From contig PKCS01000017.1 of the NCBI GenBank assembly GCA_002862305.1, forward strand, positions 1-33,414: a stretch of DNA of 33,414 nt. Reading direction: 5' to 3'. The notes under the pieces are model-generated. The model searched no databases, was not told where the DNA came from, and saw only the letters and a list, made by a program, of their open reading frames with translations. Positions 1,260-23,605 of this stretch are shown here, piece after piece. The stretch comes from Phycisphaerae bacterium (GTDB lineage Bacteria > Planctomycetota > Phycisphaerae > Phycisphaerales > SM1A02). Position numbers and translations under genes: made by a program. Every line of letters begins with the position of its first letter. Position 1 is the first letter of the stretch.

Positions 1260-2516
1260 TCAGGGAACCAGGTCGGTCTCGCCGCAGCTGATCCGCTTCA
1301 TCAGGATCGCGAAGAGCGCGGCACGTTCCCAGAGCGACTCGATCTCGACGTACTCGTCGCGCCGATGAAGGTTGCCACCCCGGATCCCGAGGGTGTCCAC
1401 GCAGGGGAGGCCCGCCGACTGGAGGACGTTCGCGTCGCACACCCCCCCGGTCCGGCCGAAGGGCATCTCGCCGCCGAGGGCCTCGGCGACCGAGCGGGCG
1501 GCCATCGCGATCGCGGTCACGTCCTCGGTCTGGGGCTTGGCGGGGCGGTTGAAGGTCCGGTGGATCGTGACCCGGGGCAGGTGGTCGGCGGGAAGCGGCC
1601 GACCGGACGCATCGGTGGCGTAGTCGGTCTCGATCGCCTCGATCGCCGCGGCGAGGGCGGCCTGGGCCTCGGGATCCGCGAAGCGCAGGTTGCCCCAGCA
1701 GGCCGCGTGGTCGGGGACGGCGTTGGTCGCTCCCCCGCCCTGCAACGGACCGATGTTGACGATCCGCCCGTTCCCGGGATCCGCGAGGTCCAGCACCCGG
1801 CCCATCACCTCCGCGAGGGTCTTGACCGCGGAGATCCCCCGCTCGAACTCCCGGCCGACGTGCGCGCTGCGGCCCTCGACCTCGATCATGAACTGGCCGG
1901 ACCCCATGCGCTCGACCACCAGGGACCCGTCGGGAAGCGCGGGCTCGATGACCAGGCCCAGGTCGTGCTCCGCGGCGGCGTCCTGCAGGTGCCGTTCCGA
2001 GCAGAAGGTGCCGGTCTCCTCGTCGCTGTTGATCAGGTAGGTCCAGTGGCACTCGACGCCCTCGGCGTCGAGGGCCTCCAGCGCGGCGAGGGCGACCAGC
2101 AGGCCGCCCTTCATGTCCGCGGCCCCGGGCCCGCGGGAGATCCCGTCGGCCTCGTGGGTCAGGGCGATGAAGGTGTCCTCGGGGTCGTGCACGGTGTCGA
2201 TGTGCCCGGCGATCAGGATCCGCGGGCCGCCTCCCTCGAGCGGGCGCGAGCACACCGCGGTGGGCGGTGGGTCCGCCTGCACGCCACCCAGCAGCCAGTC
2301 CGGTCGAGGCGCGCCGGGGCGGAGTTCGGTGGTGGCACCGAGCGCCTCCAGCCGGGTCACGAGTCGTTCACGCATGAGGTCGAGCCCCGGGACGTGGCCC
2401 TGCCCGGAGGGGATCGCGACCAGCTCCTCGAGCTGCCGGACCAGTTCGGGCTGCCGGGCCTGCAGGCGATCGCGCAGACGCGCTTCGAGGGGATCGAGGG
2501 ATCGCGGGTCAGTCAT
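1260..2516 (-). CDS. M20 family metallopeptidase (ArgE/DapE/CPG2-like)
   Basis: This 418-residue protein is a zinc-dependent amidohydrolase of the M20 family. Visible ligands are H105 and D107 in AGHIDTV, D134 in GPGAADMKGG, the catalytic pair E166-E167 in NSDEETG, E191, and H384 in GGNLHRRDEY. The dimerisation (lid) domain lies between about 205 and 310 (GRSAHVGREFERG). Length and order match carboxypeptidase G2/DapE-type enzymes. Its ATG overlaps the dapF stop by 8 bases, implying translational coupling, so a role in diaminopimelate or peptidoglycan amino-acid metabolism (for example a DapE-like deacylase) is a reasonable inference. The motif set alone cannot separate DapE, ArgE and glutamate carboxypeptidase. 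No signal peptide is seen, so it should be cytoplasmic. Confidence 0.88.
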   Translation of the reverse strand: MTDPRSLDPLEARLRDRLQARQPELVRQLEELVAIPSGQGHVPGLDLMRERLVTRLEALGATTELRPGAPRPDWLLGGVQADPPPTAVCSRPLEGGGPRILIAGHIDTVHDPEDTFIALTHEADGISRGPGAADMKGGLLVALAALEALDAEGVECHWTYLINSDEETGTFCSERHLQDAAAEHDLGLVIEPALPDGSLVVERMGSGQFMIEVEGRSAHVGREFERGISAVKTLAEVMGRVLDLADPGNGRIVNIGPLQGGGATNAVPDHAACWGNLRFADPEAQAALAAAIEAIETDYATDASGRPLPADHLPRVTIHRTFNRPAKPQTEDVTAIAMAARSVAEALGGEMPFGRTGGVCDANVLQSAGLPCVDTLGIRGGNLHRRDEYVEIESLWERAALFAILMKRISCGETDLVP

Positions 2517-3453
2517 TCCAGAGCGGCTCCTCGACCGGTCGGACCACGAGCTGGTCCGGGGTGACCTCGCCGGTGAAGACCGTCTGCATCGAACCGTGGA
2601 GGGTCACCAGCCCGGAGGTCCGGTCGTAGTCCATCCGGAGGGCTCCGCCCGGGAGGCGCGCGTCGACCGTCGCGTTGGTCCGGCCCTCGAGCACCCCCGC
2701 CACCGCGACCGCGGAGGCCCCGGACCCGCAGGCGAGGGTCGCCCCGCTCCCCCGCTCCCAGGTCCGGATGGTGAGCCGGCCGGGGGCGTCGACCCGGACG
2801 AAGTTCACGTTGATCCGCTCGGGGAACCAGGGGTGGTGCTCGATCCGCGGACCGACCTGCTCCAGGGGGACCTGGTCGGGGCGGTCGGTCCAGAAGACCA
2901 GGTGCGGGTTGCCGACCGAGACCAGGCTGCACACCGGCTCGACCCCGGCGATCCGCAGCAGGGTGGCGTCCTCGTCGAGCAGCTGGTCGAGGTCGAGGTG
3001 GAGTCCGATCGTGGAATCGTCCGAGTCCATCCCCGGGATCGAGACCCCGAGCTCGCCGATCGTCGTCCCCGGCCGTCCCATCACCACCGAGGCGCTGCCG
3101 AGCAGTCCGGCCTCGGAGTGGGTGCGGACCTCGAGCACCCCCGCGCCGGTGCGGATGCGCAGGTCGGGGCCGGAGACCATGCCCTGGTCGATGGCGAAGA
3201 GGGCGGCGCACCGTAGCCCGTTCCCGCAGAGTTCCGCCTCACCGCCGTCGCGGTTGAAGATCCTCATCGAGAGGTCCGCGTCGTCGGAGGCGTCCCGGCC
3301 GACGAGGATCAGCCCGTCGGCGCCCACCCCGTGGTGCCGGTCGCAGATCCGCCGGGCGACGTCGCCGGGATCCTCGACCGAATGGTGGTCGGCGTCCACG
3401 TAGACGTAGTCGTTCCCGATCGCGGTCATCTTGGTGAAGCGGAGGGTGCTCAT
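2509..3453 (-). CDS. dapF: Diaminopimelate epimerase
   Basis: DapF converts LL- to meso-diaminopimelate, the last shared step to lysine and the peptidoglycan cross-linking residue. The 314-residue protein begins MSTLRFTKMTAIGNDYVYVD, as DapF does (substrate-binding Asn in GNDY). It contains both catalytic cysteines: C76 in ELCGNGLRCAA and C242 in LACGSGASA. The VGNPHLVFW and ERINVNFVR segments are also typical. The start ATG 3453 lies 41 bases after the M48 gene stop, and the stop overlaps the start of the M20 gene by 8 bases, so it sits third in a four-gene operon. Length is slightly above the usual 270-285 because of a small insertion around residues 125-160. Confidence 0.96.
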   Translation of the reverse strand: MSTLRFTKMTAIGNDYVYVDADHHSVEDPGDVARRICDRHHGVGADGLILVGRDASDDADLSMRIFNRDGGEAELCGNGLRCAALFAIDQGMVSGPDLRIRTGAGVLEVRTHSEAGLLGSASVVMGRPGTTIGELGVSIPGMDSDDSTIGLHLDLDQLLDEDATLLRIAGVEPVCSLVSVGNPHLVFWTDRPDQVPLEQVGPRIEHHPWFPERINVNFVRVDAPGRLTIRTWERGSGATLACGSGASAVAVAGVLEGRTNATVDARLPGGALRMDYDRTSGLVTLHGSMQTVFTGEVTPDQLVVRPVEEPLWND

Positions 3454-3494
3454 GGGGGTCCGTTCGGGGGGTTCCGGGGGGTGGCGGGACTGGA

Positions 3495-4922
3495 TCAGGC
3501 GGGCGCCTCGCCGACGAACCACGCCAGCGAGATGGCCAGAATAACGAGGATCGTGCCCGCTTTGAGCAGTCGGACCTGTCGGTCGATCGGTAAATCGTCG
3601 ATCGGGCGCCCCACGAGCCGCGCCAGCCGCGACTGGCGCCAGCGAATCGACCCGTGACGCCAGGTGTGGCGGGCGGGGTCCATGCCGTTGTACCTGGCCA
3701 CGGATTCGAGGGCGGACGCGACCAGGGCCGAGGCCTCCGGGGTCACCCGGTCGCCCTCGTGGTGCCCGAGGGCGAGGTCCCGCGCGGCGGCCGCGTCCGC
3801 CTGGAGCTCCAGCCTCCGGGAGACCGCGCCGAAGCCGATGAAGACCACCCCCAGCACCACCACCACCGCCACCAGTTCGAAGGCGGACTGCAACCGGCCG
3901 GGGTCCGCGCCGGTCTCGAGGGCCAGGCGGAAGACGGGGTTCACGATCCATTCCACCAGCTGCCCGACGAGGGCCACCAGGGCGAAGAGCATCGCCGCGG
4001 TCCAGGGAAGGTGTCGATGCCGGAGGTGCCCGGCCTCGTGGGCCATCACCGCCCGGACCTGGTCGAGGCTCAGCAGCTCCAGCAGCCCGTCGGTCAGGAG
4101 CACGAACCGGGTGGCGGGGAAGACCCCGATCACCGCGCCGTTCAGCATCGAGGTCCCGGTGGGCCAGACCAGGATGTCCCGCACCCGTACCCCGGCCTCG
4201 CGCAGCACCTGCTCCATCGCCCGGCGCACGGGCCCGTCGGCGAGGGGGACCGCCCCCACCGCCAGCCGCATGGTGAACGGCGCGAGCACGATCCCGAGGA
4301 GCCCGGCCGCGCCCGCGGCCACGGGCGCGATCCCGGAGCCGGGCCGCAGCAGGCGGACCGCGAGCTCGGCGGATTCCACGAGGGCGAGGATCATCAGCAC
4401 CGGCACCAGCACCAGCAGCAGGTGGGTCCGGAACTGCCAGAGCACGTACCCCGCGGCGGAGGGCACGGGGTGGACCGGGAGCCCCTCGTCCAGTCGACGG
4501 ATCAGCAGCGATTCGCGAAGCAGCCGTTCCAGCGGCCACTGCACCCACCAGAGCATCGCGAGCAGGAACAGCGCGGGCAGGATCGAGAGCAGTTCATCGA
4601 GGACCACCACGTCCCCGATGGCGGCCCGCACCAGCTCGAGCCAGCCCAGGCCGGCGAGGGAGACCACGGAGCACCCGACCACGATCCACTGCAGCACCCG
4701 AAGGCGGGTTCCCGCGCGGAGGATCGAGGCGGGGGAACCCCCGACGGCCAGCCGCAGGGTCCTTCGGACCAGGACGTACTCGAGGACCACGCAGGCCACG
4801 GGGGGGAGGAACGCCACCAGCGGTGGGAGCCAGGGGGGGATCGACCCGGCCGACCACGACGCGCCGAGGCCCTGGTCGGCGAGCATCACCGCGGCCAGGA
4901 GTAGGAGCACGAGTACCTGCAC
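3495..4922 (-). CDS. M48-type membrane zinc metalloprotease
   Basis: The 475-residue protein has the HExxH zinc motif as MAHEAGH (H295, E296, H299) and a downstream LELQADAAA segment that supplies the third ligand in M48 peptidases. About five hydrophobic segments precede the motif (near residues 1-20, 35-55, 78-95, 108-128, 165-185 and 205-222) and two follow (around 310-330 and 345-365), with a last one at the C-terminus. The architecture resembles HtpX/Ste24-like integral membrane proteases with the active site facing the cytoplasm. The start is GTG 4922 with GGAG about 10 bases upstream; it lies 19 bases after the stop of the lipoprotein gene. Being in one operon with a lipoprotein suggests an envelope quality-control role; this is inference. 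Confidence 0.85.
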   Translation of the reverse strand: MQVLVLLLLAAVMLADQGLGASWSAGSIPPWLPPLVAFLPPVACVVLEYVLVRRTLRLAVGGSPASILRAGTRLRVLQWIVVGCSVVSLAGLGWLELVRAAIGDVVVLDELLSILPALFLLAMLWWVQWPLERLLRESLLIRRLDEGLPVHPVPSAAGYVLWQFRTHLLLVLVPVLMILALVESAELAVRLLRPGSGIAPVAAGAAGLLGIVLAPFTMRLAVGAVPLADGPVRRAMEQVLREAGVRVRDILVWPTGTSMLNGAVIGVFPATRFVLLTDGLLELLSLDQVRAVMAHEAGHLRHRHLPWTAAMLFALVALVGQLVEWIVNPVFRLALETGADPGRLQSAFELVAVVVVLGVVFIGFGAVSRRLELQADAAAARDLALGHHEGDRVTPEASALVASALESVARYNGMDPARHTWRHGSIRWRQSRLARLVGRPIDDLPIDRQVRLLKAGTILVILAISLAWFVGEAPA

Positions 4923-7811: not shown

Positions 7812-8284
7812 CAGTGATCCTTTCCCGACCGGCGATCGGCCATGGCCTGCCTCGCCCGTCGCCAGATGTCCGTACGAGCCGGCTCGAGGCGGGACTGCTC
7901 CTCGCGCCATGACTTCGGCTTGATGAGTTCCAGGTGATCCCGCACCCCCAGCACGGTGACCGACTTCGAGAGCCCGTACCGGTCCAGCAGCCGGACCGGG
8001 ATCCGGATCCGCCCCGCGGAGTCCAGGGGCACCCGCGCGGACTGGGAGAAGACGAGGCGTTCGAAGTCGTCCAGGTCGTCGTTGCCCAGCAGCGATCCCG
8101 CCAGCTCCTTGGAGAGGGTCTCGAAGGTCCGTTCCGGCCAGAGCCAGAGTGATCCGTTCCCCCCGGGGGCCGCCACGAACGCCGATCCATGCACCTCGGG
8201 ATCCAGGACATCCCGGACCTCGGCGGGAATCGCCAGGCGCTGCTTCGCGTCGATCGAGTGCTCGTATTCGCCAAGGAAAAACAC
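7811..8284 (-). CDS. mraZ: Transcriptional regulator MraZ
   Basis: The 157-residue protein has the two SpoVT/AbrB-like halves of MraZ: FLGEYEHSIDAKQRLAIP near the N-terminus (D12, R16 of the DxxxR motif) and LDSAGRIRIP at 87-96 (D88, R92). MraZ forms ring-shaped oligomers that bind TGGGN repeats and repress the dcw cell-division operon it normally heads. Here no rsmH/mraW, ftsL or mur gene follows: the gene is alone, convergent with csrA. GTG 8284 is chosen because MraZ proteins begin with MFLGEYEH-type sequence; a longer start at 8344 would lie upstream of the predicted transcription start. GAGG lies about 9 bases before the GTG. Confidence 0.95.
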   Translation of the reverse strand: MFFLGEYEHSIDAKQRLAIPAEVRDVLDPEVHGSAFVAAPGGNGSLWLWPERTFETLSKELAGSLLGNDDLDDFERLVFSQSARVPLDSAGRIRIPVRLLDRYGLSKSVTVLGVRDHLELIKPKSWREEQSRLEPARTDIWRRARQAMADRRSGKDH

Positions 8285-8322
8285 GCATCCGTACCTCGAA
8301 GAAGGAGTCCGGGAACGGAAGG

Positions 8323-8351
8323 AGAATAACCCACTTTGCCCCACTGTTCAA
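8323..8351 (-). promoter_or_regulatory. mraZ promoter (TTGAAC - 17 bp - TATTCT)
   Basis: On the minus strand -35 TTGAAC (8346-8351) and -10 TATTCT (8323-8328) are separated by exactly 17 bases. The predicted start near 8316 gives a leader of about 32 bases before GTG 8284. This is one of two consensus-like sigma70 promoters seen in the window. Confidence 0.75.
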
Positions 8352-11976: not shown

Positions 11977-12654
11977 TCAGATGGCGTCGGGGTACTTGTC
12001 CTCGATGTGTCGGTAGAAGAGCCAGGAGGCCTGGTCGACGAACTTGGACAGCACCCCCATCTCGATCTGGGACGCGTTGGCGCTCTCCCGCCCGACCCCG
12101 GTGATGTCGGGGAACTTGACCGCGACGTCCCAGCTCTCCGCGAAGGCGTCGGGATCCCAGCCGTCCCGCTCGATGACCCCGACCGAGCCCGCGCAGGCCC
12201 CGTCCCAGAGGTACTGGTTCCCGTGGGGATGGAGTCGGTACTCGTAGATCTCCACGTAGACCACGCGCTCCACCCCGAGCTCCTCGGCGATCTGCCCGTA
12301 GGCGAGCATCGACCAGCTGGGGGTCTGGTACTGCCACTGCATGACCTGCTGGTAGGCGAGGACCTTGATTCCCGGCACGTTCTGCTGGAGCCGCCGGGAG
12401 ATGTTCATGGAGAGGTTCCCGTAGACCGAGGGATACTCGTAGAGCGTCGAGGGATCGCACTGGACGACGACCGCGACCGTCTGGTCGTTGAGCCCCTCGT
12501 ACTCGGCGAGGACCTCGATCTTCTTGTAGCGCTCGATGTTCTGGCCGACCGCGCCGGCGAGCGAGGGGATCATGCAGCCCTGGAGCAGCAGCCCCCCGGC
12601 GGCGAGCACCATCGGCAGGATGATCCGGAGGTGATTCGGGAGGCGGTCGGTCAT
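11977..12654 (-). CDS. Lipoprotein of unknown function (paralogue of the 11933 gene)
   Basis: The 225-residue protein begins at ATG 12654, whose ATGA overlaps the stop of the DUF2752 gene, so translation is probably coupled. A signal peptide ends in lipobox LLLQGC (C27). The mature part starts with a helix and strand YKKIEVLAEYEGLNDQTVAVVV and contains QVMQWQYQTPSWSMLAYGQIAEELGVERVVYVEIYEYRL. C-terminal residues SKFVDQASWLFYRHIEDKYPDAI form a probable helix. Shared layout and similar blocks make it a likely paralogue of the next gene. Function unknown; envelope location is secure from the lipobox. Confidence 0.78.
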   Translation of the reverse strand: MTDRLPNHLRIILPMVLAAGGLLLQGCMIPSLAGAVGQNIERYKKIEVLAEYEGLNDQTVAVVVQCDPSTLYEYPSVYGNLSMNISRRLQQNVPGIKVLAYQQVMQWQYQTPSWSMLAYGQIAEELGVERVVYVEIYEYRLHPHGNQYLWDGACAGSVGVIERDGWDPDAFAESWDVAVKFPDITGVGRESANASQIEMGVLSKFVDQASWLFYRHIEDKYPDAI

Positions 12655-13124
12655 AGGACGTCCTTGAATTCGAGGATCTTGTAGACCCAGGCGAGGACCA
12701 CCACCGCGGCCAGCACCATGAAGAACCGCGAGCCGAGCCGGTCGGTCCAGAACCCGAGCATCCGGTCGCCGGTGACCAGCTGCCATCCCGCGACCACCAG
12801 GGCGCAGGCGGTCAGGAACGCGAGCAGCGCGCCGGCGGGCTGGGCGCGCAGTGCGCCCAGCAGGTTGCCGTCGGTGGCGTGGGCGAAGGCGGTGGTCATC
12901 CCGCAGGACGGACAGGGAATGCCCGCGTAGACCACCCAGCCGCAGGGTGCGAGGCCCAGCTGGAGGTGGGTGCCCAGCCCCCGGGAGGAGGGTTCCATCC
13001 AGGCCGCGAGCAGCAGCAGCCCGGCGCTCACGGCCACGACCAGGGCGGCGGTGGAACGCCGGCCCCGCCGGTCGGCGGCCGGCGGACGGAGGGCCGGGGG
13101 GGATGTGGCGCACGAATCCTGCAT
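12651..13124 (-). CDS. DUF2752 family small membrane protein
   Basis: This 157-residue protein carries the DUF2752 signature GIPCPSCGMTTAF (two cysteines in CPSCG followed by TTA) after a first transmembrane helix (about 28-43). Further hydrophobic helices are at about 92-112 and 130-150. The cysteine motif sits at the membrane surface; the family has no established function. The start ATG 13124 is supported by a TATCCT box 7 bases upstream. It heads the minus-strand set with two lipoproteins and a putative glycosyltransferase and is divergent from the M19 dipeptidase. Confidence 0.85.
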   Translation of the reverse strand: MQDSCATSPPALRPPAADRRGRRSTAALVVAVSAGLLLLAAWMEPSSRGLGTHLQLGLAPCGWVVYAGIPCPSCGMTTAFAHATDGNLLGALRAQPAGALLAFLTACALVVAGWQLVTGDRMLGFWTDRLGSRFFMVLAAVVVLAWVYKILEFKDVL

Positions 13125-13131
13125 CCGTGAG

Positions 13132-13137
13132 AGGATA
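13132..13137 (-). promoter_or_regulatory. -10 box (TATCCT) of the DUF2752 gene
   Basis: On the minus strand TATCCT ends 7 bases before ATG 13124, consistent with a leaderless transcript heading the four-gene set. No strong -35 was identified. Confidence 0.45.
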
Positions 13138-13193
13138 CCTCGATCGTGGAACCGACTCCATCCTCCCCCCGTCATTGCGAAGGAAAGCCACCC

Positions 13194-14240
13194 ATGACCC
13201 CCCGGCCCGACACTCGACCCTGGCTGGATGCACACCTCGATCTGGCATGCATGGCGCTGGAACGGGACCCCGACGCCCCGAGCCTGGTGGCGGAGGCGGA
13301 CCCCGCCCGCGCCGCGATCACCCTGCCCAGCCTCGCTCGAGGATCGGTGCGGTGCTGCCTGGGAACCATCTTCACCGCGGCCCACGAACCGGAGGATCCC
13401 TGCGGGTACGGGGACCACGAGGATCGGGACGGCGCGCACCGGGCGGGCCTCCGCCAGCTGGAGCTCTACGAGGCCTGGGAACGAGCGGGGCTGATCCGGA
13501 TCGTCCGCGGTGCCCGGGAACTCGAGGCGTGCCTGGAGTCCCCGGACGGCCCCCCGGGGGTGGTGCTGCTCATGGAGTGCGCGGACCCGATCCGCACCCC
13601 CGAGGAACTGCCGGAGTGGGTGGCGCGTGGGGTCCGGATGGTCGGGCTGTCCTGGGGACACGGCTCCCGCTACAGCGGTGGCAACCAGCGGGCCGGGGGG
13701 CTCACGCCGGAAGGGCGGGACCTGGTGGCGGCGCTCGACGACGCGGGCGTGGCGCACGACGCCTCGCACCTGTCGGACGAGTCCCTCGACGACCTCCTGG
13801 CCCTGTCGGTCGGACCGATCGCCTCGACGCACTCCAACGCCCGGCGACTGCTCCCGGACGGCCCCCGGGCGATCCGACACCTGCGTGCCGAGCACGCCCG
13901 GGCGATCGCGGCCCGAGGAGGGGTCGCGGGGATCAACCTCTACGGCCGCTTCCTCGCCGAGGGACGCCGGGCCACCCTGGCCGACGTGGTCGAGCATGCC
14001 TGCGTCCTCGCGGAGGACTTCGGTCGGGACGGGATCGGACTCGGCAGCGACGCGGACGGGGGCTTCACCCCCGCGGAGCTGCCGGTGGAGGTGCAGTCAC
14101 CCGAGGACTACCCACGGATCCTCGAGGGGCTTGCCGAAGCGGGATGGACCACCGAGGAACGGGCGTCGTTCCGGGGCGGAGCGTGGCGATCGTTCCTGCG
14201 CTCGATCCCGGCGATGCGGGACGCATCGCTCAGCGGGTGA
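13194..14240 (+). CDS. Peptidase M19 (membrane/renal-type dipeptidase)
   Basis: The 348-residue enzyme belongs to the M19 binuclear zinc dipeptidases, which cleave dipeptides including D-amino-acid-containing ones. Ligands visible are H14 and D16 in DAHLDL, the bridging E128 in LLMECADPI, and histidines in DASHLSD and STHSNARRL, with GLGSDADGGF giving the final acidic residue. Order and spacing fit the family. ATG 13194 follows AAGGAAAG at a good distance and is preferred over the in-frame GTG 13146, which lies too close to the divergent promoter. The gene converges with the MinD-like gene; their ends overlap by 11 bases. No signal peptide is apparent. Confidence 0.9.
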   Translation: MTPRPDTRPWLDAHLDLACMALERDPDAPSLVAEADPARAAITLPSLARGSVRCCLGTIFTAAHEPEDPCGYGDHEDRDGAHRAGLRQLELYEAWERAGLIRIVRGARELEACLESPDGPPGVVLLMECADPIRTPEELPEWVARGVRMVGLSWGHGSRYSGGNQRAGGLTPEGRDLVAALDDAGVAHDASHLSDESLDDLLALSVGPIASTHSNARRLLPDGPRAIRHLRAEHARAIAARGGVAGINLYGRFLAEGRRATLADVVEHACVLAEDFGRDGIGLGSDADGGFTPAELPVEVQSPEDYPRILEGLAEAGWTTEERASFRGGAWRSFLRSIPAMRDASLSG

Positions 14241-15834
14241 CGAAGGCGGTGCGTTCGTTGTTGAGCGGGATGGTGGACGGCCCGCTCCCGGGGGCGTCGA
14301 CCAGCAGGTGCAGCAGGAGTCCGGTCCCGTGCAGGTCGCTCGCGGCCGCGGCATCGCGCACCACGAGGTCGAGGCGCAGGCCGTGGTCCTCGAACGGGGC
14401 GAGCCCGTCGGCGAACACCGCGGCCAGCAGGCTCCGGTTCCTGACCGCCCAGGCCTCCGCCGCGCGCAGGTCGCGCAGCGACGCCTCGTCCGCCACCAGG
14501 TGCAGTCGTCGCTGGTCGTCGAGGGCCAGCCCGATCCCGGGGGAGACCGGGCACGGGAGGTCGACCGGCTCGAGCCCGGCGACCAGACCGGCGTGGTGCG
14601 TGACCCGGTCGGGAGCCGCCTCGCCCGAAGCCGCCTCCTCGAGGACCGGGGTGGCGTGGACGGGAGGATCGGGTTCGACCATGGGCGTCACCTCGGGGAC
14701 CGGGGCGGCGTCGAACCTGGCGCGCAGCGCGCTGCGTTCCGCCTCCTCGTCGAAGGGCGTGGGGCACGGTCCGTCGAAGGATTCCTCGAACATGCCGGGG
14801 GCGTCCGCCGCCACGAGGGGGACCTCCGCGGAACCGATCAATCCCGTCAGTTCCTCCGCGCTCGGGGGGTCCAGGACCTCCTCGTCGGACGCCAGCACGG
14901 GATCGGGTTCGAGGCTGGCCAGGATCACCTCCGGACCGGGCACGGTGGCGGGTGCGGGGTCGACCGGGGACGAAGGGGGCTCGTCGATCGGGCCGGATCC
15001 GGCGGACCCGCGATCGAGGGCGGCGCGGCGGAGTTCGGCCACCAGCCGTTCGGTGTCGTAGGTCGGGCCCACCGGGACGTCCCAGTGGCGTCCCGGGGTG
15101 ACGACCGGTGCGTCGACGGACTCCGGTCCCATCGCGGGGATCACCAGGTCCAGCGGCAGGTCGAACTTGAGGAACCGACTCGCGGTCTCCGAGATCCTCG
15201 ACGCGATCGCCCGCGCGTCGTCCTCGTTGGTCCCCGCGATCACCAGCGACAGGGCCGGCAGCGGGAGCTCCGCGCCGCGGGCGGCCTCCACGAGTTCCTT
15301 CGAGCGACGATAGGCCTCGATCTTCGCCGCCTCGTCGGCCCCGGTCATGATCGTGATCGGCAGGTCGGTCTCCAGGATCGCCTCGTCGTCATCGATGGAC
15401 CGGGGGACGACCACCACCCGTGCCAGGTTGTCCGCGACCCAGCGAGCGAGGTCGCTGATGCGCTGGCAGGCGCCCTCCGGGGGATCGATCGGTTCCGATC
15501 CCTCGCCGAAGACCTGGACGGAGCAGCTCTTGTACTGGAGCCGGATCAGCGCGACGGGGCCCCGACCCCGGGCGATCCGCTGCACGTAGGCGGGAAGCCA
15601 GAGGTTCGCCCACACCGGGAGGTTCCCGGGGAACAGGACCTCGAGGCCCAGCGGCGGGACGGCCTCCAGCACCGGGGCCCCCCCATCGGAAGCGGGTCGG
15701 GCCGGCGCGCTGCGTCGATCGCGGTCGACCGTCGCCCCGCTGCGGATCGGCCGCAGGGTGTCCTCGCCCACCGAGAGCTCGGGACCGGAGAGGAAGCCGT
15801 CGGCGAATTCGTTGAAGGGATCCTTGGAGCTCAT
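14230..15834 (-). CDS. MinD/FlhG-like pseudo-ATPase lacking the P-loop, with acidic linker and unknown C-terminal domain
   Basis: The 534-residue protein has no conserved Walker motif, but residues 63-240 follow the MinD/FlhG pattern. LEVLFPGNLPVWANLWLPAY sits where the KGGVGKT loop and first helix belong and is followed by GPVALIRLQ at the LLIDAD strand. PITIMTGADEAAKIEAYRRSK matches the TTPEPTAxTDAYALIK block, and LSLVIAGTNEDDARAIASRI...ASRFLKFDLPLDLVIP matches the NRVR...RFL...G.IP block. The nucleotide-binding lysines and aspartate are lost. A long Pro/Glu/Asp-rich linker (about 270-420) leads to an unknown C-terminal domain (about 425-525). It begins 36 bases after the ParA-CBM48 gene. 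The fold assignment is my reading by eye. Confidence 0.6.
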   Translation of the reverse strand: MSSKDPFNEFADGFLSGPELSVGEDTLRPIRSGATVDRDRRSAPARPASDGGAPVLEAVPPLGLEVLFPGNLPVWANLWLPAYVQRIARGRGPVALIRLQYKSCSVQVFGEGSEPIDPPEGACQRISDLARWVADNLARVVVVPRSIDDDEAILETDLPITIMTGADEAAKIEAYRRSKELVEAARGAELPLPALSLVIAGTNEDDARAIASRISETASRFLKFDLPLDLVIPAMGPESVDAPVVTPGRHWDVPVGPTYDTERLVAELRRAALDRGSAGSGPIDEPPSSPVDPAPATVPGPEVILASLEPDPVLASDEEVLDPPSAEELTGLIGSAEVPLVAADAPGMFEESFDGPCPTPFDEEAERSALRARFDAAPVPEVTPMVEPDPPVHATPVLEEAASGEAAPDRVTHHAGLVAGLEPVDLPCPVSPGIGLALDDQRRLHLVADEASLRDLRAAEAWAVRNRSLLAAVFADGLAPFEDHGLRLDLVVRDAAAASDLHGTGLLLHLLVDAPGSGPSTIPLNNERTAFVTR

Positions 15835-15870: not shown

Positions 15871-17265
15871 TCAGGTGGACGCTGGGATCTCCAGCAGGCA
15901 GGTGGTCGGATCGGAGGCCTCCACGCTGGTTGCGTGGGGGTCGGGGGCGGGGGTCCCGTCCACCAATAGTCGATAGCGGTAGGTGCCGGGGGGAAGCGGC
16001 AGGATCACCTCGTGGTCCCCGGCGGGTCCTCGGGGGGCGAGCGGTTCACCCTCGCGGGCCCAGTCGTTGAAGTCGCCGGTGACCGCGACCGTCGAACCGG
16101 TGCCGGCGGGCTGGCGGAAGCAGACGCCCTCGGGGATGGCGAAGGCCCCGAAGCGACCCGGTTCGTGGTCGCCGTCGCCGGACTTCGTGGGGTCGACCAC
16201 CAGCGACTGGAGGCCCTGGGGCGCGGAGCGCACCCGATCGAGGACCCCCTCGGGCAGGCGCTGCACGTCGAAGACCACCCCGGGGGAGGCGCCGGCCTCG
16301 TGGCGTCCGACCCGCTGCAGCACCGCCTGGACCCGCTCGTTGGGCTCGGGCACGGGAGGCGAGGGACGACTTTCCTCGAGGGCGGAGGGGGCGGGCTGCT
16401 GGGAATCGGGGCGGGGATCCTCCGCCCGGAGGGTGGCGCGATCGGTCTCCTCCTGGTGCTGGCGGGCGCGTTCGACGGCGATGGTGGTCTGCTGGTGGCC
16501 GAGGATCCAGTCCGCCAGCCGGGCGAAGTCCTCGGAGGCCGGGGAGTCCGGGGCGAATTCCTGGACCGGCTGCCCCATGCTCGCCGCCTCGCGCAGGGAC
16601 TCGTGCTCGCGGACGACCAGCGGTGCGACCTGGTCCCCGAACCGGGTGCGGATCGCGGAGAGGATGTTCTCGGAGCGGGCGGAGGACTCGTCGTGCAGGG
16701 TCGGCAGCAGGAAGAAGTCCAGCGGTCGGCCGATCCGCTTGATCACGGTGTCGATCGTCTTCGCCTGGCGGATCGCGCCCTTGAGCGCGAAGTACCCGGT
16801 CTCGACCGGCACCAGGGTCTCGTCCGCGGCGCGCAGCGCGTTGAAGGTCAGCCAGCCGATCGCCGGGGGGCAGTCGACGATGCAGACGTCGAAGCGGTCC
16901 TGGACCAGCTCCAGCACGTGCAGCAGCCGGCGATCCCGATCGTGCTGCTCGGCGTTGCCGTGGTCCGCGCTCTCGAAGTTGGTGAGGCGCACGGTGCAGG
17001 GGATCAGGTTGAGTCCGCTGCCCACCTCCCAGATCATCTCGTCCACGAGGTCCGGCTCGTACCCGAGGTCCGCCTCCAGCGCGTCCTCGATGCCCCGGGT
17101 GATCGAGGACTCGGGCACCCCCAGCCCGGCCGCGCAGTGTCCCTGGGGGTCGAGGTCGATGAGGAGGACCCGCAGCGAGCGCCTCGCGAACTCCGCGCTC
17201 AGGTTGATCGCGGTGGTCGTCTTGCCACAGCCACCCTTCTGATTGACCATCGCGATCGTCCGCAC
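15871..17265 (-). CDS. ParA-family ATPase fused to a C-terminal CBM48/glycogen-binding-like domain
   Basis: The 464-residue protein starts at GTG 17265 with GGAG 8 bases upstream. Residues 1-255 are a ParA ATPase: deviant Walker A KGGCGKTT (10-17) with its signature lysine, LLIDLDPQGHCAAGLG, VCIVDCPPAIGWLTFNAL (Walker B), and the GYFALKGAIRQ segment. A Gln/Pro/Glu-rich linker follows (about 260-310), then a small unknown stretch. Residues 380-464 read as an isoamylase-N/AMPK-beta-like beta-sandwich: VAVTGDFNDWAREGEPLAP, then PPGTYRYRLLVDGTPAPDP. W402 is present, while the second sugar-contact Trp is replaced by Pro. No ParB or parS is nearby. This suggests positioning of a non-chromosomal cargo; that part is inference. 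Confidence 0.85.
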   Translation of the reverse strand: MRTIAMVNQKGGCGKTTTAINLSAEFARRSLRVLLIDLDPQGHCAAGLGVPESSITRGIEDALEADLGYEPDLVDEMIWEVGSGLNLIPCTVRLTNFESADHGNAEQHDRDRRLLHVLELVQDRFDVCIVDCPPAIGWLTFNALRAADETLVPVETGYFALKGAIRQAKTIDTVIKRIGRPLDFFLLPTLHDESSARSENILSAIRTRFGDQVAPLVVREHESLREAASMGQPVQEFAPDSPASEDFARLADWILGHQQTTIAVERARQHQEETDRATLRAEDPRPDSQQPAPSALEESRPSPPVPEPNERVQAVLQRVGRHEAGASPGVVFDVQRLPEGVLDRVRSAPQGLQSLVVDPTKSGDGDHEPGRFGAFAIPEGVCFRQPAGTGSTVAVTGDFNDWAREGEPLAPRGPAGDHEVILPLPPGTYRYRLLVDGTPAPDPHATSVEASDPTTCLLEIPAST

Positions 17266-17327: not shown

Positions 17328-18458
17328 TCAGCTCGCCCCGACCTCGGCCCAGCCCTCGAGGAGCAGCCCCCGTTCGGGGCCCTCGTGCAGCCGCACGGAG
17401 CCGCGCCCGTCCGGCACCACGATCGTGAGGGTGCCGTCGCGGACCTTCTTGTCCCAGCCCATTCGCTCGACGAGGTCCTCGGCGGGGAGCTTGCTGGACA
17501 ACCGGACCGGGAGTTCGCAGGCGAGCAGGACCTCCCGGAGGTGGTCGCACTCCGACTGGGTCCAGGACCCGAGCGAGCGGGCGCAGGCTCCGGCGGCCAC
17601 CAGCCCGATGGCCACCGCCTCGCCGTGCTTGAGGCCCAGCTCGGGGACGTTCTCGATCGCGTGGGCGAAGGTGTGCCCGAGGTTGAGCCAGGCGCGGGCG
17701 GCCCCCTGTCCGGCGCCGGTCTCCTCGCGTTCGTCGTGACCGACGATGGCGGCCTTGACCGCGGCGCTGCGTCGGATGAGCTCGGTGCACTCGGGGACCC
17801 CGGCCTCCAGGATCGCGGGGGCGATCCCCGCCAGCTGCTCGAGCATCGACCAGTCGGAGATCATGCCGTGCTTGACGCACTCGGCCAGCCCGCAGGCGAG
17901 TTCCCGACGCGGCAGGCTCGAGAGCACCTCGGGGTCGGCGAGGACCCCCAGCGGCTGCCAGAAGGCACCAACCAGGTTCTTCCCGAGGGTGTTGTCGGGC
18001 AGCGGCAGGTTCACGCCGGTCTTGCCCCCGATGGAGGCGTCCACCATCGCCAGGAGGGTGGTGGGCACGTGCAGCAGGGGGATCCCCCTCAGCCAGCTCG
18101 CGGCGACGAACCCCGCGAGGTCCCCGACGATCCCCCCTCCGACCGCGACCACCACGCTGGAGCGATCGATGTGCTCGCGGGCGGCGGCCTCCAGGAGCGC
18201 GGAGAACGCGGGCAGGGACTTGTTGGTCTCGTCCGCCTCGACGGTGCCGAAGGCGAGCCCGAAGCCGGCCGCCTCGATCGAGGCGGCGACATCCTCCGCG
18301 AAGGTCTCCGCGACCGACTCGTCGGCGATCAGCAGGACGCTGCGTCCGGGACGGAAGTCGACCAGCTGCCGAAGGCGCTCGCCGCACTGGGAACGCAGCC
18401 CCGGCTCGACCACCACCTGGTACGAGCGGTCCGCGAGTCTGACGTCGATGGTGCTCAC
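17328..18458 (-). CDS. aroB: 3-Dehydroquinate synthase
   Basis: AroB turns DAHP into 3-dehydroquinate, the second step of the shikimate pathway, using NAD and a divalent metal. The 376-residue protein shows the NAD-binding GGGIVGDLAGF (107-117), the HVPTTLLAMVDASIGGKTGVN block (130-150), NTLGKNLVGAFWQP, the metal ligand region LACGLAECVKHGMI and the NLGHTFAHAIE histidine motif. It starts at GTG 18458 with a GGGAGG ribosome site 6 bases upstream. It is followed after 62 bases by the ParA-CBM48 gene on the same strand. Length is normal (350-390 for the family). Confidence 0.97.
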   Translation of the reverse strand: MSTIDVRLADRSYQVVVEPGLRSQCGERLRQLVDFRPGRSVLLIADESVAETFAEDVAASIEAAGFGLAFGTVEADETNKSLPAFSALLEAAAREHIDRSSVVVAVGGGIVGDLAGFVAASWLRGIPLLHVPTTLLAMVDASIGGKTGVNLPLPDNTLGKNLVGAFWQPLGVLADPEVLSSLPRRELACGLAECVKHGMISDWSMLEQLAGIAPAILEAGVPECTELIRRSAAVKAAIVGHDEREETGAGQGAARAWLNLGHTFAHAIENVPELGLKHGEAVAIGLVAAGACARSLGSWTQSECDHLREVLLACELPVRLSSKLPAEDLVERMGWDKKVRDGTLTIVVPDGRGSVRLHEGPERGLLLEGWAEVGAS

Positions 18459-19515: not shown

Positions 19516-20183
19516 ACGCCACTGCCTCCACGAACCCGCGCACGGTGGTGCTCTTCGGAGGCACCTTCGACCCCCCCCACCTGGCCCACGTCGCCCAGGC
19601 GATGACCGCCGCGGAACGCCTCGGGGCCGGGGAGGTGGTGTTCATCCCCAACGCCTCCAACCCCCAGAAGACCGAGACCGCGCCGACCGCCGCCCACCAC
19701 CGGCTGGCGATGCTGGAGCTGGCCCTCGACGGACACCCCCGGGCGACCATCAGCCGGGTGGAGCTCGAACATCCCGGTCCCAGCTACACGGTGGACACCC
19801 TTCGACGGCTGGTCCGGGAACCTTTCCTGGAGGGGGCCCGGCTGCGACTGCTGATCGGGGCGGACCAGGCCCTGAACTTCACCACCTGGAAAGACTGGGA
19901 GGCGATCGAGCAAATGGCCGAACCAGTGGTCATGCCCCGTCCCCCCCACACCCATGACCGGCTGCTGGCCGAATACGAGGCTTTTTACCCCGGGACCGCC
20001 GACCGCTGGAAGGGGCGCACCCTGGACATGCCGGTGGTGGAGGGCTGCTCGACGGACCTGCGCCCGATGATCGCCGCGGGGCGCTCGCTGGAGGGGCTGC
20101 TGGATCCGGCGGTCGAAGGGTACGTTCGGCGACATCGACTCTACGGATGGGGTGATCCAACGGCTACCATCGAGACGTCATGA
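19512..20183 (+). CDS. nadD: Nicotinate-nucleotide adenylyltransferase
   Basis: NadD adenylates nicotinate mononucleotide to make deamido-NAD. The 223-residue protein has the nucleotidyltransferase motif GGTFDPPHLAH at residues 16-26, the family segments FIPNASNPQK, PGPSYTVDTLRRL and LLIGADQALNFTTWKDW, and the C-terminal GCSTDLR, equivalent to ISSTxIR. ATG 19512 is chosen from the ATGA overlap with the preceding stop. Its own stop overlaps the rimO start in the same ATGA arrangement. Gene order in this cluster differs from the frequent obg-proB-nadD-rsfS order. Confidence 0.95.
   Translation: MNATASTNPRTVVLFGGTFDPPHLAHVAQAMTAAERLGAGEVVFIPNASNPQKTETAPTAAHHRLAMLELALDGHPRATISRVELEHPGPSYTVDTLRRLVREPFLEGARLRLLIGADQALNFTTWKDWEAIEQMAEPVVMPRPPHTHDRLLAEYEAFYPGTADRWKGRTLDMPVVEGCSTDLRPMIAAGRSLEGLLDPAVEGYVRRHRLYGWGDPTATIETS
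20165..20170 (+). promoter_or_regulatory. Possible internal -10 (GCTACCAT) before rimO
   Basis: TACCAT lies inside the end of nadD and ends 9 bases before the rimO ATG. It is the same GCTACCAT string found before the amidohydrolase gene. It might give a separate leaderless rimO transcript; coding constraint makes it weaker evidence. Confidence 0.3.
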
Positions 20184-21736
20184 ACCAGGTCGCCTCCCCA
20201 ATCAACTCCGTGGCGTTCGTCAGCCTCGGCTGCCCGAAGAACCTCGTGGACAGCGAGAAGATGCTCGGCACCCTCGTCCAGGACGGGCTGGAGCTGGTCT
20301 CCGACCACGACGAGGCGGACGCGATCGTGGTGAACACCTGCGGGTTCATGGAGTCCTCCAAGGACGAATCCCTGGAGGTGATCCGGGAGGCGATCCAGCG
20401 CAAGGAATCCGGGGACCTCAGCCGGGTGGTGGTCGCGGGCTGCCTGGTCCAGCGCCACCGGGCCAAGCTGCTCCAGTGGGCGCCCGGGATCGACGCGATG
20501 ATCGGGGTCTTCGACCGCGACCACGTGCTGGAGGCGGTGCGCGGGGTCGCCCCGCCGCGGGAGAACGCGATCGAGTCCCCGGAGGCCCCCCGCTACTGGA
20601 TCTCCGGCAACGCCCTGCAGGCCGCGGGCGAACGCGGGATGGAGACCACCGGCCTGACGGTGCACGGCAAGGACGGCAAGGGGATCGGCTACTTCGAGGA
20701 CGACGCCCAGCGGCTCCGCCTGACCCCGCGGCACTGGGCGTACCTCCGGGTCTCGGAGGGCTGCAACCAGAAGTGCGCCTTCTGCACCATCCCCTCGATC
20801 CGCGGCAAGATGCGCTCCAAGGGGGTGGACCGGATCGTCGAGGAGGCGCGGGCCCTGGTCAACGAGGGGTGCTTCGAACTGAACCTGATCGGGCAGGACA
20901 CCACCAGCTTCGGCTACGACGTCGGCTACTCGGCGGGCCTGGTCGGGATGCTGGAGTCGGTCGACGAGGTGCTGGAGGAGGCGGGCGGCGGCTGGGCGCG
21001 CCTGATGTACGCCTACCCGACGTTCTTCGACGACGAGATGATCGACGCGATCGCCAGGCTGCGGAACGTGGTCAACTACATCGACATGCCCCTGCAGCAC
21101 GCGAGCGACGCGATCCTGGACTCGATGCGCCGCGACGTGCGCGCGGACCAGCAGGCCGCCCTGATCCACAGGCTCCGGGACCGCATCCCGGGGATGGCCA
21201 TCCGCACCACCTTCATCACCGGGTTCCCCGGGGAGACCGAGGACGACCACCGGAGGCTGATGGACTTCGTGGAGGAGATGGAGTTCGAGGCGATGGGCGT
21301 CTTCCGCTACTCCCGGGAGGCGGGCACCCCCGCCGGCCGGATGGACCGCGACCCCGACCTGCACGTCCCGGACGAGGTCAAGCTGCGCCGGGAACGGGAG
21401 CTGATGCTGCTGCAGCAGCGGATCGCCTTCGAGAACGCCGCCTACCTCGCCGAGCACCGGGTCCAGCTGGACGTCCTGGTCGACGCCCCCGCGGCGGGGG
21501 GCACCGAGGGACGCGCGACGCCGGGGGTGAACGACTCCGGCAACCGGCTCCACGTGGGACGGGCCTACCACCAGGCACCCCAGATCGACTCCCTCACCTA
21601 CCTCAGCTCGCGGGAGGCGCTGAGCCCCGGGGAGCTCGTCCGCTGCACGATCGTGGACAGCGACGGCTACGACCTGGTCGCCCAGCCCTCGGCGGAGCTC
21701 GAAACCCGGTTCAACCTTCCGGTGGTCGCCGGCTGA
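20180..21736 (+). CDS. rimO: Ribosomal protein S12 methylthiotransferase RimO
   Basis: RimO is a radical-SAM enzyme that methylthiolates the conserved aspartate of ribosomal protein S12. The 518-residue protein has the N-terminal cluster cysteines C18 (SLGCPKNLVDSE), C54 (NTCGF) and C88 (AGCLVQ). The radical-SAM CxxxCxxC is SEGCNQKCAFC (C195, C199, C202), followed by TIPSIRGKMRSK. A C-terminal TRAM domain follows (about 440-515). VSLGCPKNLVDSE distinguishes RimO from MiaB. It is longer than E. coli RimO (441): about 45 extra residues lie between the N-terminal domain and the radical-SAM motif (about 128-178). Start overlaps nadD by 4 bases. Confidence 0.95.
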   Translation: MNQVASPINSVAFVSLGCPKNLVDSEKMLGTLVQDGLELVSDHDEADAIVVNTCGFMESSKDESLEVIREAIQRKESGDLSRVVVAGCLVQRHRAKLLQWAPGIDAMIGVFDRDHVLEAVRGVAPPRENAIESPEAPRYWISGNALQAAGERGMETTGLTVHGKDGKGIGYFEDDAQRLRLTPRHWAYLRVSEGCNQKCAFCTIPSIRGKMRSKGVDRIVEEARALVNEGCFELNLIGQDTTSFGYDVGYSAGLVGMLESVDEVLEEAGGGWARLMYAYPTFFDDEMIDAIARLRNVVNYIDMPLQHASDAILDSMRRDVRADQQAALIHRLRDRIPGMAIRTTFITGFPGETEDDHRRLMDFVEEMEFEAMGVFRYSREAGTPAGRMDRDPDLHVPDEVKLRRERELMLLQQRIAFENAAYLAEHRVQLDVLVDAPAAGGTEGRATPGVNDSGNRLHVGRAYHQAPQIDSLTYLSSREALSPGELVRCTIVDSDGYDLVAQPSAELETRFNLPVVAG

Positions 21737-21802: not shown

Positions 21803-23605
21803 GTGAACATCCGTAACTTCTCGATCATCGCCCACATCGACCACGGCAAGAGCACCCTCGCGGACCGTCTGCTGCAGGAGACTCGTGCCGTCGACGAGCG
21901 CAAGCACAAGGACCAGCTGCTGGACTCGATGGACCTCGAGCGGGAACGGGGGATCACCATCAAGGCCGCGGCGGTCACCGTCCCCTGGGAGTTCGGGGGC
22001 GAGCACTACCAGCTGAACTTCATCGACACCCCCGGGCACGTCGACTTCACGTACGAGGTGTCCCGGGCGCTGACCGCCTGCGAGGGCGCGGTCCTGGTGG
22101 TGGACGCGGCCCAGGGCATCCAGGCCCAGACCGTGGCCAACGCCTACCTCGCGGTGGAGAACGACCTCGAGCTGATCCCGGTGATCAACAAGATCGACCT
22201 GCCCGCGGCGGACCCGGTCCGGGTCGCGATGGAGATCGAGCAGGTCCTGGGCCTGCCCGCGGAGGACTGCATCCAGGTCTCCGCGAAGACCGGGGAGGGC
22301 ATCCGCGAACTGCTGGACGCGATCTGCGAGAAGCTCCCGGACCCCCCCGCCCCCACCACCGACAAGCTGCGGGCCCTGATCTTCGACAGCCACTACGACG
22401 ACTACCGCGGGGTGGTGGTCTCGACCAGGGTCTTCGACGGCAAGCTCTCGGTCGGGCAGAAGATCCTGATGATGGGCACCGGCCGCCCGTGGACCGTCAC
22501 CGACCTCGGCAAGAACACCCCCTTCCCGGTCCAGGTGAAGGAACTCGGCACCAACGAGGCCGGGTGGATGGTGGCCTCGATCAAGACCCTCGGCGACGTG
22601 CGGGTGGGCGACACCATCACCCTCCAGTCCGATCCCGCGCCCGAGGCGCTGCCCGGCTACGAGGAACCGAAGCAGATGGTCTTCTGCGACTTCTATCCCG
22701 CGACCTCCGCGGGGGGCGGCAAGAAGGGCGACTTCGAGACCCTGCGCGAGGCGATGGAGCGCCTCCACATCAACGACGCCAGCTTCACCTACGAGGTCCA
22801 GCACTCCGAGGCCCTGGGGTTCGGGTTCCGCTGCGGGTTCCTCGGCCTGCTGCACATGGACATCGTCCAGGAGCGGATCGAGCGCGAGGGTGGGGTGGAG
22901 ATCGTCCAGACCGCGCCCACCGTGTCCTACATGATCGACCTCAAGGACGGCTCCAGCGTGGAGATCCAGAACCCCGCGGACCTGCCGGACCCCAACCACA
23001 TCGAGGGGATCCGGGAACCGATCGTCAAGCTCGAGATGATCTGCCCCGAGGACAACATCGGGGACCTGATGAAGCTCTGCGACGCGAGGCGCGGGATCTT
23101 CAAGTCCCAGCAGTACCTCAGCGAGACGCGGCAGATCCTCGACTTCGAGCTGCCGCTGGCGGAGATCATCTACGACTTCTACGACAAGCTGAAGTCGATC
23201 ACGCGCGGCTACGGGACCATGGACTACGAGATCATCGGGTACCGGCAGGACAACCTCTCGAAGGTGTCGATCATGGTCAACGGGCAGCCGGTCGAGGCCC
23301 TCAGCCTGATCTGCCACCGCAGCAACGCCGAGCACCGCAGCCGGGCGATCCTCGCCAAGCTCCGCAAGCAGATCGACCGCCACCAGTTCGAGATCGCGCT
23401 GCAGGCCGCCATCGGGGGGAAGATCATCGCCCGGGAGACGGTGAAGGCGCTCCGGAAGAACGTGACCGCGAAGTGCTATGGTGGCGACATCACCCGCAAG
23501 CGGAAGCTGCTCGAGAAGCAGAAGGCGGGCAAGCAGAGAATGAAGACCATCGGCAGCGTCAACATCCCCCAGGAAGCGTTCATGGCCGTGCTCGAACAGG
23601 AATGA
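21803..23605 (+). CDS. lepA: Elongation factor 4 (LepA), ribosomal back-translocase GTPase
   Basis: LepA is a translational GTPase related to EF-G that acts on stalled or initiating ribosomes at the membrane-associated pool. The 600-residue protein has all GTPase motifs: AHIDHGKSTL (G1), RGITIKAAAV (G2), DTPGHVDF (G3), NKIDLP (G4) and the SAKTG segment (G5). The LepA-specific C-terminal domain ends KRMKTIG-like (KQRMKTIGSVNIPQEAFMAVL). The start is GTG 21803, matching the family start MNIRNFSIIAH. The 30 bases before it are pyrimidine-rich and no Shine-Dalgarno sequence is visible, which is odd for a highly conserved gene. Confidence 0.98.
   Translation: MNIRNFSIIAHIDHGKSTLADRLLQETRAVDERKHKDQLLDSMDLERERGITIKAAAVTVPWEFGGEHYQLNFIDTPGHVDFTYEVSRALTACEGAVLVVDAAQGIQAQTVANAYLAVENDLELIPVINKIDLPAADPVRVAMEIEQVLGLPAEDCIQVSAKTGEGIRELLDAICEKLPDPPAPTTDKLRALIFDSHYDDYRGVVVSTRVFDGKLSVGQKILMMGTGRPWTVTDLGKNTPFPVQVKELGTNEAGWMVASIKTLGDVRVGDTITLQSDPAPEALPGYEEPKQMVFCDFYPATSAGGGKKGDFETLREAMERLHINDASFTYEVQHSEALGFGFRCGFLGLLHMDIVQERIEREGGVEIVQTAPTVSYMIDLKDGSSVEIQNPADLPDPNHIEGIREPIVKLEMICPEDNIGDLMKLCDARRGIFKSQQYLSETRQILDFELPLAEIIYDFYDKLKSITRGYGTMDYEIIGYRQDNLSKVSIMVNGQPVEALSLICHRSNAEHRSRAILAKLRKQIDRHQFEIALQAAIGGKIIARETVKALRKNVTAKCYGGDITRKRKLLEKQKAGKQRMKTIGSVNIPQEAFMAVLEQE

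Follow-up and report, generated by a model that had tools for sequence, protein, structure and literature searches.

Analysis of a window of 33,414 nucleotides (the whole stretch of DNA studied) from a Phycisphaerae bacterium revealed a gene that joins a ParA/Soj-type ATPase to a C-terminal CBM48-type domain, directly followed by a gene for a P-loop-less, FlhG/MinD-like partner. With moderate confidence, we read the pair as a two-gene ParA/pseudo-FlhG system, serving spatial organisation or acting as an ATP switch, that may be ancestral to the Phycisphaerae-like class and carries the CBM as a glucan-type tail. ParA-type ATPases position chromosomes and organelles, and they normally leave cargo recognition to an adaptor protein of its own. 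Throughout this class, the ATPase itself contains a carbohydrate-binding-type domain and has a dedicated pseudo-ATPase partner, in organisms of little-known cell biology. The fusion makes it possible to test directly for a connection between carbon reserve and the organisation of the cell interior, and relatives with intact, degenerate and absent CBM provide ready-made natural controls. A search of the open-access literature found no paper that brings together ParA and CBM48, or ParA and the positioning of glycogen, and no published description of the fusion.

The fusion gene (15871..17265, minus strand), recognised by its open frame, profile searches and recurrence, starts with GTG at 17265, ends with TGA at 15871-15873 and codes for 464 amino acids; the plus-strand translation of the same interval is interrupted by a stop at codon 33. 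Residues 1-254 (16504..17265) constitute the ATPase domain. Pfam AAA_31 matches residues 1-181 (E 2.6e-40), and in the PDB search the nearest solved chains for residues 1-259 were those of ParA/Soj (best 8ray, 5.8e-37). The deviant Walker A motif KGGCGKTT (residues 10-17, 17215..17238) has K10, G11, G12, G14, K15, T16 and T17 invariant in an alignment of 30 ParA members, in which the general pattern KGGxGKT(T/S), the A' motif DxDPQ and the Walker B region are likewise invariant or nearly so. Judged by these motifs and by AAA_31, the window's ATPase is assigned to the ParA/MinD superfamily. A variable Pro-rich linker defined by alignment follows (residues 255-380, 16126..16503) and includes a conserved motif, RVQAVLQR (residues 311-318, 16312..16335; consensus R-a-a-E-L-a-x-R), whose R311 and R318 are at least 90% conserved in the 30 aligned members. 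This motif was still present in 26 of 26 order members devoid of the CBM.

Residues 381-464 (15874..16125) form the CBM48/AMPK-beta-type domain, identified by Pfam AMPK1_CBM, by profile matches to AMPK-beta structures and by a residue table. AMPK1_CBM matches residues 388-449 at 9.1e-10, with 39.0 bits where the cut-off is 26.8, and was matched independently by 29 of the 30 aligned fusion members (E 0.001). Residues 383-448 of the window protein match AMPK-beta CBM chains in the PDB search, and the family profile matches the AMPK-beta CBM structures 1z0n and 2f15 with E of about 4e-11. The single-sequence structure model of the window protein had a pLDDT of 41. The original prediction of intact ParA motifs, with KGGCGKTT at 10-17, and of a CBM48-type C-terminus, with GDFNDW at 397-402, was confirmed in both parts; the profile check which it had proposed for the C-terminus assigned this region to CBM48 and to no other fold. 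Misassembly or a chance join of two genes, which it had named as a possible undoing of the fusion, was rejected, since the same full-length architecture recurs in many related genomes of the order and the class.

A survey of the domain pair across Planctomycetota, also proposed in the original prediction, placed the fusion in the order, in the class and in one more distant genome. Profile search of 301 order genomes returned full-length matches in many genera, and the parA gene sequence was examined complete in 83 order genomes. The class search returned 21 loci outside the order, and in all 21 the CBM and the second glucan-contact Trp are present; in L207 and L214, counted among these, the residue was overlooked by the automatic pattern and seen in the printed sequence. 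The order genome G015 (family f5) appeared without CBM in the class search, and the class families f8, f82 and f87 gave no match at the threshold of that search. Outside the class, a ParA-CBM protein is present in G356, a genome of the same phylum that belongs to another family. The tree of ATPase domains (90 rows; a quick tree with long outgroup branches) comprised 40 rows with CBM and second Trp, 21 with CBM and no second Trp, and 27 CBM-less rows including the distant G329; the second Trp is retained in 40 of the 61 CBM-bearing rows. Within the tree set, order families other than the window's own (f1) have the intact form alone. Five changes of CBM presence or absence fall on the tree, and at least three label changes are forced by well-supported branches. 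A parsimonious history would begin with an ancestral fusion, followed by loss of the Trp and several deletions of the domain, both inside f1. Genomes of f1 are small, many of them near 2-3 Mb. One locus (L079 of G102, 1515-2744) codes for a 410-aa ParA whose tail has no visible CBM, and its sister genome G213 retains a degenerate CBM; the CBM-less tail could represent extreme decay or a frameshift.

The partner gene (14230..15834, minus strand; 534 aa) starts 36 nt past the parA stop and belongs to no Pfam family; Pfam and NCBIfam searches gave nothing convincing. A homologue was found in 40 of 40 order loci. In 39 it comes right after parA, loci with a partner open frame extending back into parA being counted as adjacent; in the fortieth (G049) it lies about 8 kb off on the opposite strand. 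The partner is retained at CBM-less loci. Overlooked by the original prediction, it is a more constant part of the system than the CBM. Of the 45 loci at which the start was located, 20 show a 4-nt overlap (ATGA) between parA and the partner gene, a sign that the two are translationally coupled in many loci. In the class outside the order, a weaker homologue was found at 10 of 21 loci within the 1.5 kb covered.

Residues 63-271 of the partner (15022..15648, minus strand) form the P-loop-less FlhG/MinD-like domain. Comparison of the N-terminal domain with a Planctomycetota FlhG profile by hhalign gave 96.4% (E 1.3e-9), against 0.1-0.9% for eight column-shuffled controls, the aligned part being the C-terminal half of FlhG; the match of the partner to FlhG 4rz2 in the PDB had an E of 0.03. 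The Walker A P-loop is gone, and a GHLPVxAxxW-type sequence stands in its place in 33 aligned members. By profile, this N-terminal domain is assigned to the relatives of the FlhG/MinD ATPases, a group that includes the ATPases that place flagella. Origin of the partner as a ParA copy was rejected, as hhalign to the ParA profile gave just 0.2%. At its start the partner has a short, conserved run of acidic and hydrophobic residues, D-x-[FY]-D-x-L-A-x-L-F-L, and at its end a C-terminal domain (14233..14595, minus strand) that is conserved in alignment across the order. Among solved chains, this C-terminal domain had no recognisable relative beyond a weak SecDF match (E 0.0011), which is short and unsupported, and a TatB match of the partner (PDB, 0.003) falls mostly inside the Pro/Ala-rich linker; both candidates were dismissed. 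The single-sequence structure model of the partner had a pLDDT of 39.

FlhG-like neighbours were also observed in distant relatives. In G356 (L119 5111-7335) the ParA-CBM48 gene is followed by a gene for a longer MinD/FlhG-like protein of 352 aa, which has a destroyed P-loop (LAAERGEDAS). It matches FlhG by hhalign at 92% over 197 columns; no direct profile match between it and the partner family was found, each matching FlhG separately. In family f38 (G329:C9, i.e. L115 1453-3230, and G389:C40) the gene of a CBM-less ParA either overlaps an intact FlhG-like gene or lies very close to one, and such a pair is possibly the ancestral form of the ParA/pseudo-FlhG pair.

In AMPK-beta, residues W100, K126, W133, L146 and T148 touch the bound sugar, and mutating them lowers glycogen binding (PMC2642990). 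Of the Trp pair (W100 and W133), the window's CBM keeps only the first, as Trp402; the W133 position is Pro439, in agreement with the original prediction that the second sugar-contact Trp is replaced by Pro, and the position of N150 is Thr. Loss of the second Trp is common to the window's genus and the nearest genus, and inside f1 the whole domain has been deleted several times. Outside f1, nearly every member has a CBM with both AMPK-type Trp, and the second one is retained in every CBM examined. The window copy is thus derived and one of a degenerate minority of the family. At the other end of the protein, basic residues occupy the DNA-contact positions of Soj (B. subtilis R189/R218) in the deep branches and are lost or shifted in f1 and in the window copy; hence, nucleoid-based positioning may not hold in the window's family. 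With the Trp loss counted in, drift in f1 has thus reached the two ends of the protein.

Because both Trp are retained over the whole class, the CBM most likely bound glucan ancestrally. Because ParA and the partner persist without it, the CBM cannot form the core of the system; the best reading is a tail of ancestral origin, for sensing or for cargo, that the system can do without. In the two-gene system that we propose, the first protein would be a Soj-like ATPase, for which the motifs predict ATP-dependent dimerisation, with a tail made up of the short linker motif and an ancestral CBM48 bearing an AMPK-beta-type alpha-glucan site. As the conserved Trp pair suggests, the CBM48 may inform the ATPase of alpha-glucan or a glucan-bearing partner, or tether it there. 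The second protein would be a P-loop-less FlhG/MinD-like pseudo-ATPase with a lineage-specific C-terminal domain, and its near-universal linkage suggests that it most likely replaces ParB or McdB as the ATPase's obligate partner. At the sensor end, decay would be under way in the window's family, with the second Trp replaced and the domain repeatedly lost, while ATPase and partner stay. A more specific version, in which glycogen or maltodextrin bound by the CBM controls the ATPase cycle or defines the cargo and the P-loop-less FlhG-like protein acts as activator, with granule placing or coupling to carbon reserves as the outcome, is held only tentatively.

CBM48-like domains also act in protein assembly in other systems, and the domain could instead be put to E-set use, as a docking or dimerisation module by which a cargo protein or a regulator is recruited, sugar being irrelevant; we give this a rather low probability. 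It would fit the copy in the window and those of its close relatives, where the domain and W100 are kept without the W133 position, and to this extent it was reasonable of the original prediction to consider docking in place of glycan binding; this does not extend to the family overall, in which the two sugar-contact Trp are retained class-wide. Moreover, the partner stays after the domain is lost, and therefore the CBM is not its obligate dock.

The original prediction had also pointed to glycogen granules as cargo, and positioning or partition of such granules, with the CBM tethering the ATPase to glycogen and the granules spaced or shared at division in an McdA-like manner, seems unlikely. 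In its favour, the W100/W133 pair is intact outside f1, these two residues are required for glycogen binding in AMPK (PMC2642990), and a weak excess of canonical GlgA or GlgB was found in genomes with intact Trp (6/16, against 0/16 of those without; P = 0.018, uncorrected for kinship). On the other side, glycogen phosphorylase is not associated with the CBM (17/25 genomes with it and 5/7 without; P = 0.70), canonical GlgA (TIGR02095 above cut-off) occurs in just 2 of 80 order genomes, no glucan gene adjoins the parA operon, and ParA and the partner outlast loss of the CBM. Most of the 80 order genomes have a diverged GT5/GT4-like protein, represented in the window's genome by a 565-aa frame (G000:C19:3806-5122). 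On other contigs of this genome lie genes resembling those of alpha-glucan phosphorylase and branching enzyme, and one for another CBM48-bearing amylase-type protein; hence, alpha-glucans are probably part of this bacterium's metabolism, though none of these genes is linked to the operon.

That the fusion is a common chromosomal or plasmid ParA whose tail is decoration is highly improbable in spite of best sequence matches to chromosomal Soj/ParA, given the fixed and different partner gene, the absence of a parS-like site in the window at up to 3 mismatches, and the presence on other contigs of one ParB (C4) and one other, Soj-like, ParA match to the window query (C42). The earlier statement that neither ParB nor parS is nearby therefore stood, and in the window copy neither the adjacent parB and parS nor the Soj-type DNA-contact basic residues of a ParABS system were found.

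The proposed ParA/pseudo-FlhG system shares traits with several known ones. With Soj/ParA (8ray, 1wcv; profile E down to 1e-67) the fusion has in common the ATPase domain, the deviant Walker A and the Walker B region, and differs in the added linker and CBM48 and in having a P-loop-less FlhG-like neighbour instead of ParB. As in McdA/McdB and other orphan ParA/MinD systems (PMC10241942), the ParA is an orphan whose own partner is encoded beside it, and the chromosomal Soj is separate, the McdA-type likeness being one of gene linkage; unlike in McdA/McdB, no microcompartment genes were seen beside the fusion, the partner is not recognisably McdB-like and the tail is a CBM48. The glycogen-binding domain of AMPK beta (1z0n, 2f15) is matched in CBM profile and, in most members, at the W100/W133 positions, whereas here the CBM is attached to a ParA ATPase and the window copy has lost the W133 and N150 positions. 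Compared with FlhG, FleN and MinD, the partner is without P-loop and carries two additions, a Pro-rich linker and a C-terminal domain. A separate intact FlhG-like gene is also present in the window's genome (G000:C6). BcsQ, the ParA of cellulose biosynthesis, ranks with the best NCBIfam relatives (one member gave 2e-32), but the window protein (88.1 bits) and the best of three tested members (112.6) score below the TIGR03371 cut-off of 157.85, and no cellulose synthase gene was seen among the conserved neighbours of the fusion.

The upstream neighbour, aroB (17328..18458, minus strand; Pfam DHQ_synthase 4.2e-40), is found at 30 of 39 related loci, a linkage that is probably context and not functional. 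A DUF2752 protein (12654-13997, minus strand) is encoded by an open frame that has been kept close to the ParA operon at about 20 related loci belonging to the same family. The window also contains genes for DAP epimerase (2512-4548), a RimO-like protein (20180-21733) and LepA (21803-23602), and an MraZ gene (7814-8347, minus strand) that is possibly the start of a division and cell-wall cluster.
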